Shown here in pieces: positions 7,209 to 57,957 of a DNA stretch of 64,000 nucleotides. Below the pieces are notes generated by a model that saw only the letters and a list, made by a program, of their open reading frames with translations, was not told the origin of the DNA and searched no databases. The translations under genes and the position numbers were made by a program. Positions within the stretch are counted from its first letter, which is position 1. Each line of letters opens with the position of its first letter. The stretch comes from Paenibacillus sp. 481 (GTDB lineage Bacteria > Bacillota > Bacilli > Paenibacillales > Paenibacillaceae): positions 2,672,501 to 2,736,500 of the forward strand of contig NZ_CP075175.1 in the NCBI RefSeq assembly GCF_021223605.1, in the 5' to 3' direction.

Positions 7209-7389
7209 AACGGTTGCCACAGACGTTATGTTGATAAATAAACAGCCATTTGGATTCTAACGGTTCTGGTGGGGCTTATATTAATGAAATCGGAAACATA
7301 AAGCCCCCCATTATCAAAATAAGCTCTCTGATAACCGTTGCAAATCAAAAACGTGTATTTTTAGCAAAATAGCCCCTGTGGCAACCGTT
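7209..7389. repeat. 181-bp dyad-symmetric element, copy A (left of island)
   Basis: Four heptamer boxes sit at 7209 (AACGGTT), 7259 (AACGGTT), 7333 (AACCGTT) and 7383 (AACCGTT), so the orientation is plus, plus, minus, minus. Spacings are 50, 74 and 50 bases, all symmetric about 7299. The outer arms extend to a perfect 15-bp inverted repeat (7208-7222 with 7376-7390), and a 13-bp direct repeat covers the first two boxes. The copy at 18175-18355 has exactly the same box positions. The rest of 6930-7545 holds no gene I can support. Confidence 0.8.
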
Positions 7390-7545: not shown

Positions 7546-8862
7546 ATGTCATCGGGTTCGCACGAATATACTCCGATTGGCGACCTCATCAGACATTACA
7601 GACAAGAAGCCAAATTGACGGTAACGGAATTAGCCAAGTTAGCCAATGTTTATAAAGGGAATATTTCAAAGATCGAACACGGAGACGTGAAGAAACCGGA
7701 CTACAATATGGTTCTGTCCCTTTCCAACGTGCTACATATTCCATACACTGAAATAGCCGTAAGCTACAGTGAAATTGAGAAAAAACCAGAATCGCTGTTA
7801 GCCATATTAATGGAGACGATCCAGACCGGGAACGAACTCGTCATAACCCAAGTTGCAGACAAATTCCTTAACTCATATGGGGAAAGTGAAGACCTCATCG
7901 CGCAGTTACACTCCCATACACATCAAATAGAAGACACCCCCATTCAACTTGCACTCTACAAAGTCATCATCGAATATTCAAGAAATCATGGCATTATGCC
8001 TTATATCGCAAAAGGTTTGTATGAAGAATATATTATTGAACGAAATGATTTTACGAAGCTCACCGCAACCTATTATTCAGGTAGAGCGGTTCTACATTAT
8101 GCGAACTTTCTTAGTGAGCGAGAAAGGTTAAGATTGTATTATGCTCTTGCAGTTCATGCGTTTAGTCTTATGAAGTATGACGAAGCCATTGATCTAAGTA
8201 AGTATGTGATAGAGAATGACACTGCAAAAGGTGAGTATCGTGTACATGCAGTATATACGATATGTTGTGCTTATTATTACTTGGATAAATATGAAATTTG
8301 CCAGACTTATCTTGAAGAGTATCGCAAATTTCCATACGACTATATAGACGATAATGTGAAGTTGATGATTGGACTAATCAGTGGTCGAACAGGTGACTTT
8401 TATTTAGGTATTAAACAGCTAGAACATTATTTAGAGAGTCCGTCTTCTTATAACTTAATATATTCTGTTACAGCACTTTTTGACTTTTACATGAATATAA
8501 ATGATTTAGAATCAGCAGGCAAGCTACGCAGATATGAGGAACAAATGGAACTATCTCTTCAAGATATTCGCACGACCCCAGAAAAAAGGGCTGAATTAGC
8601 CTTGTACTATGAACTGAACGGACATCATCAACTTTCAAATAATGATTTTAAGGATGCAATTCAGTATTTTCGTAAAAGTATTACACAGTATATGGGGGTA
8701 GCTAAATACAGAAAGGCTTTTTATATCGTTTCAGTGCTTATAAAATTAATTGTAAATAAGATTAATGACAGTTCATTTCTTGAGAATTACTGCATTCAGG
8801 ATATTAGTGAATTGTGTGAAAATTTAAGCCTGAAAATGATAGAGGAAGGGGATTGGCGTTAA
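7546..8862 (+). CDS. AloR/RNPP-type peptide-sensing transcriptional regulator (HTH + TPR), copy 1
   Basis: A 438-residue regulator. Residues about 10-65 form an XRE-type helix-turn-helix (IGDLIRHYRQEAKLTVTELA onward, with SKIEHGD as the recognition end). Residues about 100-430 are helical repeats of the TPR type used by RNPP receptors (Rap, NprR, PlcR, AimR) and by AloR of Paenibacillus polymyxa to bind a short re-imported peptide. The RBS AAAGGGTGGG precedes the ATG. The stop codon TAA overlaps the ATG of a 40-codon secreted peptide gene, the classic receptor/pheromone arrangement. A paralogue lies at 26290-27570; both share the N-terminal MSSGS...IGDL and the block YIIERNDFTKL / YLIERNDFTKL. 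Target genes are inferred, not shown. Confidence 0.85.
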   Translation: MSSGSHEYTPIGDLIRHYRQEAKLTVTELAKLANVYKGNISKIEHGDVKKPDYNMVLSLSNVLHIPYTEIAVSYSEIEKKPESLLAILMETIQTGNELVITQVADKFLNSYGESEDLIAQLHSHTHQIEDTPIQLALYKVIIEYSRNHGIMPYIAKGLYEEYIIERNDFTKLTATYYSGRAVLHYANFLSERERLRLYYALAVHAFSLMKYDEAIDLSKYVIENDTAKGEYRVHAVYTICCAYYYLDKYEICQTYLEEYRKFPYDYIDDNVKLMIGLISGRTGDFYLGIKQLEHYLESPSSYNLIYSVTALFDFYMNINDLESAGKLRRYEEQMELSLQDIRTTPEKRAELALYYELNGHHQLSNNDFKDAIQYFRKSITQYMGVAKYRKAFYIVSVLIKLIVNKINDSSFLENYCIQDISELCENLSLKMIEEGDWR

Positions 8863-18114: not shown

Positions 18115-18560
18115 AAAAAAGAGCTACCCCTAGGGGCAGCTCCTCAGGCTGTCGAGAAAGCAAAGTTAGTTCTTAACGGTTGCCATAGTGGCTATATCGC
18201 CAGATTTAGCTCGTTTTGATTTCTAATGGTTATAGGTGAGCTTATTTCTCGAATTTCATTCAAAATCCAGCTGTTTTCATCGTAATAAGCGCCATCATAA
18301 CCGTTAAATGTTGAACGGGTTCATATTCGCTGAAATAACAACTGTGGCGACCGTTAGGAGTGGAGGCACGGTGAATGAGCTGACCACCTACGGTTAGGGC
18401 ACAGTGAATCAACAGACTACCAACTGACTATCAAATAACTACCAACCGATAAGTGCAAAGCTGCTTGCCGTTATCTTAACTAAGAGAAACCATCGTCTTA
18501 ACAAACAGAGGTTTCTAGACAAGCTGAAGAGCTGCCCCTAGGGGCAGCTCCTTTTTAATA
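18115..18560. mobile_element. Non-coding element with about 46-bp terminal inverted repeats (MITE-like)
   Basis: 18115-18160 and 18513-18558 are inverted copies of each other (about 40 of 46 bases). Each contains a near-palindromic core around GCCCCTAGGGGC and the outer ends run into A or T tracts. No reading frame of note lies between. The right core (18529-18550) is a perfect 22-bp palindrome. The element encloses the second 181-bp dyad element. It could be a miniature transposable element or a pair of terminators in opposite orientation; the similarity beyond the palindrome, into the AGGCTGTCGAGAAAG region, favours the former. Confidence 0.5.
18175..18355. repeat. 181-bp dyad-symmetric element, copy B (right of island)
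   Basis: Boxes at 18175 (AACGGTT), 18225 (AATGGTT), 18299 (AACCGTT) and 18349 (GACCGTT), symmetric about 18265, with spacings 50, 74 and 50, identical to copy A. By hand alignment without gaps the copies agree at roughly 58 percent of positions, with matches concentrated at the boxes and at an inner AGCTTATT/AATAAGC pair. Confidence 0.8.
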
Positions 18561-38267: not shown

Positions 38268-38302
38268 AAGAAGATGGCGTATTGGCCATCTTCTTTTTTT
38301 TA
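38268..38302 (+). terminator. Intrinsic terminator after chemoreceptor gene
   Basis: An 11-bp stem (38268-38278 with 38285-38295) and a long T run. Confidence 0.88.
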
Positions 38303-38307
38303 TTTTC

Positions 38308-38425
38308 AATGAAGTTTAATGAAATCTAATGAAATCTAATGAAGTCTGAAGTCTAATGACATCTAATGAAGTTCTAATACAAGTTCTAATGCAGTTCTAC
38401 GAGATCCGTTAAAGTTCGATGATGT
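38308..38425. repeat. Degenerate tandem repeats (TCTAATGAAG-like)
   Basis: About ten imperfect copies of a 10-12 base unit, TCTAATGAAG and variants, follow the chemoreceptor terminator. There is no coding potential. The 38249-38747 gap also contains an inverted repeat near 38620 and otherwise nothing I can support. Confidence 0.55.
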
Positions 38426-38619
38426 CCGTCATAGTTGGACATACTAGGTGCAATGATAGCCGCTTATGGACAGTATGCGCTTGCAATGTGTTTGTGAAAT
38501 ATTACCTTAGCGCTTTAGCGCGGTTTTGCATATAATGCAGTTTATATTTGCAACCGGAATTGCATGATATATACATACGAGCGTTTTGCATAAATCCACT
38601 TAGCGGCTTCAAATTATCG

Positions 38620-57835: not shown

Positions 57836-57913
57836 CGCAAGGTTCGATGTAACTGGCGACGGAAGTGGGCAACCACGGTGGAGCATCGAACGATACGGCC
57901 GGTCGCCTGGGCA
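57836..57913 (+). promoter_or_regulatory. ZTP (pfl) riboswitch aptamer upstream of rpiB-ywlG-glyA
   Basis: P1 is GTTCGATG (57842-57849) pairing with CATCGAAC (57884-57891). Inside are the invariant ACTGGCG, then a GTGG/CCAC hairpin and GGTGGAGCA. After P1 comes the small GGC/GCC hairpin and the diagnostic CGCCTGGGCA, which forms the pseudoknot with CTGGCG. These are the consensus features of the ZTP/ZMP-sensing pfl RNA, which turns on one-carbon and purine genes when 10-formyl-THF is short. glyA, two genes on, fits that regulon. Confidence 0.88.
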
Positions 57914-57914
57914 A

Positions 57915-57957
57915 AAGAGCAGTGTATGACATTAGTCATGCTATGCTCTTTTTTTCG
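57915..57957 (+). terminator. Riboswitch-controlled terminator
   Basis: AAGAGCA (57915-57921) pairs with TGCTCTT (57944-57950), with a nested ATGAC/GTCAT stem and eight T. It directly abuts the aptamer's pseudoknot strand, the usual layout of a ZTP on-switch. I see no gene in 57958-58131. Confidence 0.85.

Follow-up and report, generated by a model that had tools for sequence, protein, structure and literature searches.

The window analysed here, a 64,000-nt stretch of the Paenibacillus sp. 481 genome, holds two copies of a dyad element made of four short boxes. In element A, the AACGGTT boxes at 7209 and 7259 and the AACCGTT boxes at 7333 and 7383 are exact and symmetric about 7299, as the earlier note described, and the outer inverted repeat TAACGGTTGCCACAG spans 15 bp including its leading T (14 bp from the box). 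Copy B (18175–18355) keeps the offsets of A with the boxes AACGGTT, AATGGTT, AACCGTT and GACCGTT; its same-strand identity to A is 58.0%, matching an earlier hand count, and 64.1% when B is turned round. The two-box pattern matches twice in the window and in none of 100 window shuffles, and the geometry of A and B is therefore not due to chance. The features are listed below, where R1 is a sequence-only profile built from copies with 50-bp arms.

7209–7389, no strand: element A, four-site dyad, 181 bp (R1, 105.4 bits, E = 7.5e-32)
7209–7232, + strand: element A site 1 (box AACGGTT + GCCACAGACGTTATG..; motif profile)
7259–7282, + strand: element A site 2 (motif profile)
7316–7339, − strand: element A site 3, inverted (motif profile)
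7366–7389, − strand: element A site 4, inverted (motif profile)
18119–18144, no strand: terminator-like hairpin AAGAGCTACCCCTAGGGGCAGCTCCT, left copy, target duplication
18145–18526, + strand: class I unit carrying element B, with ends CAGGCTGTCGAGAAA (18145–18159) and TTTCTAGACAAGCTG (18512–18526)
18175–18355, no strand: element B, geometry of A, member of the class I subfamily (R1, 103.3 bits)
18527–18552, no strand: terminator-like hairpin AAGAGCTGCCCCTAGGGGCAGCTCCT, right copy, followed by a T run

Besides A and B, the profile search of the window returned one 12.5-bit match (E = 0.0045) at 38298–38462, which sits in a run of approximately 10-bp TCTAATGAAA-like repeats and was taken as low complexity. 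As to a coding reading of the element, those frames that were read by eye contain stop codons. An HTH regulator gene (7546–8862, + strand), with a TPR match below cut-off, begins 157 bp past the end of element A; its ORF cluster has members at four fetched loci, that of the window included, and the product may resemble AimR/Rap-type regulators. The window also carries a ZMP/ZTP riboswitch (RF01750, 55.8 bits) at 57839–57919 on the + strand.

The element family, its geometry and its helical phasing

Similarity and pattern searches found 46 copies in the window's own genome (a single 5.69-Mb contig), and a genome-wide two-box search gave, at one mismatch or fewer, 38 forward and 44 reverse matches, compared with 3 and 2 for a reversed-pattern control. 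These copies fall into subfamilies that differ in their flanks and have only the 181-bp core in common: class I, to which copy B belongs, accounts for 27 of the 46 and shares long flanks, one subfamily is flanked by CGCCGCT/AGAGGTAA, that of copy A has CCTGT/AGAATCGAAAGG-like flanks, and there are further ones. Further copies in related genomes, on which the earlier reading had been made to depend, are plentiful. A contig scan yielded at least 120 stretches, with all 120 titled Paenibacillus, Cohnella or Paenibacillaceae, and R1, scored on the best 8 candidates per genome, detected the element in 210 of 295 family genomes (E ≤ 1e-3; 16 of 19 genera). Within the window's own genus it is present in 5 genomes and missing from at least 14 (R1). 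A class-wide draw of 398 genomes gave 37 with a match at E ≤ 1e-6, 33 of them within the family and 4 outside, and one genome (G066) carries 60 copies. Open reading frames (calls of ≥80 aa), mostly short, overlap 5 of the 46 own copies and 18 of the 120 others.

Two other origins were considered. An origin in phages or plasmids was rejected, given zero blastn matches in phage and plasmid collections (one query, weakly sensitive for a diverged family) and, in viral contigs, two stretches with the four-box pattern and one with the two-site pattern. The middle half of the contig contains 32 of the window genome's 46 copies (origin not located), yet a role as a replication-terminus element was dropped because the copies in G066, a partial list, look spread by eye.

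Each box opens a site of approximately 24 bp, and the four sites stand symmetrically at 50|80|50 bp. In 42 copies that are less than 65% identical, the site motif TAACGGWTGYYA..G.GSYTATTT recurs at 0 and +50, and in inverted form when the element is read from its opposite end. The linkers have little common sequence; A/T-rich and G/C-rich stretches alternate along them, and an A/T peak coincides with the centre of symmetry. In the core the 10-bp A/T amplitude is 0.128, compared with 0.004 in the flanks, and the pattern stops at −3. Over a whole half including its sites the best period is 10.00 bp; in the linkers alone, the 10-bp amplitude was reached in 0 of 20,000 permutations, but their best period is 12.3 rather than 10.0. 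Because the pattern suggests wrapping, a strong gyrase site, which gyrase binds and cleaves at the centre, was also considered as a possible likeness.

Arms and middles were measured at 23 loci (20 fetched from profile hits), five of which had incomplete boxes and were left out. The arms were 50 bp at all 18 four-box loci, and the middle was 80 or 79 bp at four and 90 bp at fourteen. All fourteen long middles come from AACGAAY-box copies of genus g6; a middle of 80 bp was found in a single copy of that genus. The 50|90|50 form is longer by one helical turn, as an assembly on one face of the DNA predicts. Among the matches listed in the contig scan, lengths were 181 bp (n = 87), 180 bp (n = 31) and 182 bp (n = 2); as that scan fixed the arms at 50 bp and placed the inner boxes 64–70 bp apart, these lengths are informative for the middle alone, inside those limits, and the histogram of box distances is circular as regards the arms. 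The measurement at the 18 four-box loci is the better test, although R1 itself derives from copies with 50-bp arms. The earlier claim that there are no indels needs softening: exact register is preserved in 36 of the 46 own copies, and small indels do occur.

The same note had offered a long folded structure as an alternative. RNAalifold gave a consensus of −4.8 kcal/mol, to which covariation contributes −0.19 and in which a single pair shows changes at both positions, thus neither a stable fold nor compensatory changes of the kind found in structured non-coding RNAs, and the Rfam scan of the window returned no match to the element above gathering score. The dyad, although imperfect, would suit a hairpin: for the named symmetric structure, cells changed on both sides numbered 110, a slight excess over the 92.6 in shuffles (4 of 500 shuffles as high; 9 of 500 for the covariation score), and sites 1 and 4, which would pair, are alike (z = 4.2). 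However, so are sites 3 and 4, which would not (z = 3.9), whereas the pairing sites 2 and 3 are not (z = 0.1). Since the covariation of base pairs is weak and shows no preference for pairing partners, and since the 10-bp A/T phasing and the whole-turn length change are features of DNA, it is very improbable that the element is a structured RNA or a long RNA hairpin repeat.

A linked protein gene and its proposed specificity

To look for a partner, 975 ORFs around 164 loci were clustered, and one of the 30 largest clusters was chosen for its closeness to the element (seven loci, six within 425 bp of an element; a protein of approximately 220 aa). In the window's own genome the gene lies outside the window, at G000:C1:4002618–4003286, approximately 120 bp from an element. 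The linkage and co-occurrence tests that followed the choice of cluster draw on other genomes. Of the 38 orthologue loci, 32 have an element by R1, compared with 0 of 12 paralogue loci. At the 32 positive loci, a copy lies within 500 bp after the gene in 28 and overlaps the 3′ end of the frame in two; the nearest copy precedes the gene in two, and seven have copies on both sides (1.5-kb flanks). With copies at the 3′ side of the gene in 30 of 32, the element would not be mainly a promoter operator. Two of the six R1-negative orthologue loci are at contig ends, three have variant boxes and one (L306) has no element that we could see. Tandem repeats of the element together with the 3′ part of the gene, with elements 562 bp apart, were observed at G222:C1:2575772–2577534 (L287).

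Across the 295 genomes, 159 have both element and protein, 51 the element only, 7 the protein only and 78 neither (odds 35, Fisher 4e-28, ignoring relatedness), and at R1 E ≤ 1e-20 the protein is present in 53 of 56 genomes. Rescanning 15 element-only genomes with a profile of the family found some family member in 11 and none in 4; one genome with strong elements (G056) has only a single remote member with an internal stop. Among the protein-only genomes examined (3/7), a GCGGAC-box element adjoins the gene in G069 and G079, and G010 has AACGGACATTCAGTCCGTT-like palindromes. The protein family was found in 6 of 398 Bacillota genomes drawn (E ≤ 1e-15), five of them Paenibacillaceae, and is thus nearly confined to that family in the draw made. 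One member of the protein family, followed by a dyad, lies in a 1.6-Mb genome from outside the Paenibacillaceae (G419:C10:10347–10991, L337), through transfer or contamination. We regard the approximately 220-aa protein as the probable partner of the element.

The C-terminal domain of the protein is a winged helix. Winged helices took up the structure-match list of the complete model, so the N-terminal domain was predicted alone, and it is modelled as a Vsr-like PD-(D/E)XK fold of the homing-endonuclease type. Residues D78, E91 and H98 (numbering of L282) are invariant in 18 members, and the position of the catalytic Lys is occupied by H, Q, D, K or M, which leaves cutting by this protein uncertain. 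In the PDB, the profile of the whole protein matched winged helices, ribosomal eS25 and an ESCRT-III chain. The N-domain sequence matched nothing in the PDB (best E = 0.19); a Pfam scan of the 18 members listed 13 families, with no Y1 transposase, and gave no match at 0.01 for the own-genome orthologue; and NCBIfam, PADLOC and PHROGs contained nothing that names the protein.

Across 34 loci, recognition helix and box vary in step in most cases. SENRTR goes with AACGGTT, SERRTR or TDRHTR with AACGGAA or AACGGAC, SKQHTR with AACGCTT, SEQHSR with AACGAAT and TDACAR with AACGAAC, and genus g6 pairs TDQHAR with AACGAAY. By residue and base, with box labels assigned by hand, 20 loci are non-R/T and 10 are R/A, and the exceptions are three non-R/A (L290, L309 and L315) and one R/C (L323). 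On a tree inferred with the helix left out, of uneven supports (0 to 1), two branches carry a change in both helix and box, and in one further case the two changes fall on adjacent branches (hypergeometric P = 0.026). If true, such natural protein/box pairs would be a ready-made code between winged helix and site.

Some paralogues have dyads or arrays of their own. A phased symmetric dyad comes after the gene at 28 of 40 loci of orthologues and 10 of 21 of paralogues; it comes before the gene at 9 and 3, respectively, and is found in a far control at 1 of 40 and 1 of 21. The thresholds were chosen once examples had been inspected, and an orthologue locus that lies at a contig end was dropped (40 of 41). 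Two paralogue loci (L296 and L344) carry tandem arrays of 20–26-bp palindromes with centres 51 bp apart; at a third (L310), steps of 51 and 61 bp between centres alternate, apart from a single exception in each direction. The paralogue in the window's own genome, at 4031344, has its own dyad, which five further places resemble at E ≤ 0.1, although two have E > 0.005. A partial copy from this second, paralogue-type element family, at G000:C1:4900566–4900635, adjoins a class I copy at 4900643.

Assembly, mobility and possible functions

The earlier note had argued for selection on a DNA–protein assembly, and the near-fixed geometry, the helical phasing, the linked probable partner and the helix/box co-variation support it. 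These features, like the dispersal and the co-occurrence, are read from sequence; direct binding, dimers and wrapping we infer. The reading that we prefer, and consider likely, is that the element is the site of a one-face multi-dimer assembly of the protein encoded by the adjoining gene, within a two-part system. The four sites, of approximately 20–24 bp, would be a scaffold for the protein encoded beside one of the copies. Each would probably hold one dimer, as the sites are perfect palindromes in some variants and degenerate here, and the dimers would all lie on one face of the DNA, given spacings of whole turns (50, 80 or 90, and 50 bp, at 10.0 bp per turn). The 181-bp DNA would then be bent or wrapped into one symmetric particle. 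If true, this is a defined multi-site geometry with a length variant that differs by a whole helical turn, and its predictions are directly testable (one-face assembly, 5-bp compared with 10-bp insertions, and swaps of helix and box). A further step, that a nuclease fold of the homing type has been turned into a DNA-packing protein and that Paenibacillaceae hold a set of protein/array pairs with different specificities, is one we consider doubtful; if true, each bacterium would have several parallel sets of sequence-addressed nucleoprotein particles.

How the copies spread is a separate matter. The element had been held not to be a recent MITE, which fits the old, diverged core and does not fit the 27 own copies of class I with their long shared flanks. 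Both ends were found in 19 of these 27, and define units of 324–474 bp. A hairpin duplication flanks 13 of the 19 two-ended units, above the largest of 200 mismatched controls, and the length of the duplication in these 13 follows that of the terminator-like hairpin. A family in P. macerans/oralis has CACTAGCGTTGCA-type ends on both sides in 10 of 40 copies and a 9-bp duplication that is, by eye, exact in three (L122, L156 and L219) and matches at 8 of 9 positions in four more. Unit ends, where found, thus differ between subfamilies, as do the target duplications, which suggests that unrelated machinery carried the core about and speaks against mobilization by the partner protein.

These ends bear on one serious alternative, which we rate as possible but short of probable: that copying or movement of the elements is the work of the linked nuclease-fold protein itself, by homing (cutting and repair) or transposition, in a selfish spread like that of REPINs and RAYTs, with the dispersed copies as non-autonomous progeny. 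The gene adjoins an element and lies between two at 7 of 32 loci, copies number in the tens and are patchy within a genus, the element and gene 3′ end are duplicated in tandem in G222, several family members share a genome (with a second element family in the window's own), and the fold is of the homing type. However, the unrelated ends and the dissimilar duplications (terminator hairpins in class I, approximately 9 bp in P. macerans/oralis) point to other transposases, the small families that were inspected by eye show no shared ends beyond the core, the catalytic Lys is not conserved, and dozens of intact sites should, we would expect, be lethal with an active cutter.

The elements might also, or instead, serve the host, a reading to which we also give some credence, if less than even: the particles would organize or insulate the chromosome, and unrelated transposons would have taken the elements to new places. 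Boxes average 90.5–93.5% identity in pairs of own in-register copies (n = 36) whose linkers are less than 60% identical, although this conservation is partly ascertainment, because the copies were gathered largely with box patterns; at one shared locus, in comparisons with the own copy, boxes (0.86–0.93) are kept only slightly better than linkers (0.78–0.84). Sister species keep copies at shared loci: the own copy at 3976489 and one in G024 have reading frames in common on their left, equally far away and with stretches 66–96% identical, and copies in G098 and G153 share flanking reading frames. Elements also favour gaps between convergent genes (46, with 15 divergent; other long gaps at the same loci, 20 and 31; P = 1.2e-4), and the null result in phage and plasmid collections (one query), with two stretches in viral contigs, also speaks for this reading. 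Against such a role stand the patchiness within the genus and the element-bearing genomes that lack the protein.

We consider it improbable that the arrays are a DNA sponge or addiction device that titrates or inactivates a potentially harmful nuclease, with array loss punished: a phased dyad or array adjoins the gene at roughly half of the paralogue loci and the sites are kept intact, but element-only genomes exist and the catalytic Lys is lost in orthologues.

Comparison with known systems

An open-access literature search (titles and abstract starts) found no description of the element or its partner protein, and the two together look like a so far undescribed DNA–protein system in Paenibacillaceae; if true, it would account for a large class of repeats that lack annotation in that family.

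Long arrays of perfect or near-perfect palindromes at two paralogue loci (L310 in G222, approximately 113–1150; L296 in G028, approximately 2300–2990) resemble CRISPRs in their regular spacing, and the CRISPR reading was rejected as their spacers are repeated, not unique. Class I and the P. macerans/oralis units are like MITEs in having terminal repeats and target duplications, and differ in that the core geometry is independent of the unit ends and the class I duplications are whole terminator hairpins. Compared with Vsr-like/EDxHD homing endonucleases (I-Bth0305I), DUF559 and REase_MTES_1575, the partner protein has a fused winged helix, is linked to dispersed arrays and varies at the Lys position.

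The closest likeness in organization is to REPINs and RAYTs. Excerpts of the published accounts (PMC2817692, PMC3116915) describe dispersed intergenic palindromic repeats with the cognate gene beside a copy, distinct pairs in one genome, and co-evolution of protein and repeat. The present family likewise has many dispersed intergenic copies (46 in the window's genome, 60 in G066), a cognate gene at one copy, several pairs per genome and signs of co-evolution. A RAYT is a Y1 enzyme of the IS200/IS605 type, whereas the partner here combines a predicted Vsr-like nuclease fold with a winged helix; by the Pfam scan and the predicted N domain, the cognate gene is not of the Y1 type (IS200/IS605, Transposase_17). 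A REPIN consists of two inverted REPs, whereas the element here has four helically phased sites in 181 or 191 bp, and some paralogues adjoin tandem palindrome arrays at 51/61 bp. A RAYT gene would be expected between two repeats in inverted orientation; here, both sides of the gene are occupied at 7 of 32 loci (1.5-kb flanks only), and the element is itself symmetric. The gene and its dispersed elements would thus be a two-part system of REPIN–RAYT-like organization with an unrelated protein and, if true, an independent instance, besides REPIN–RAYT, in which a repeat family and a cognate chromosomal protein belong together.
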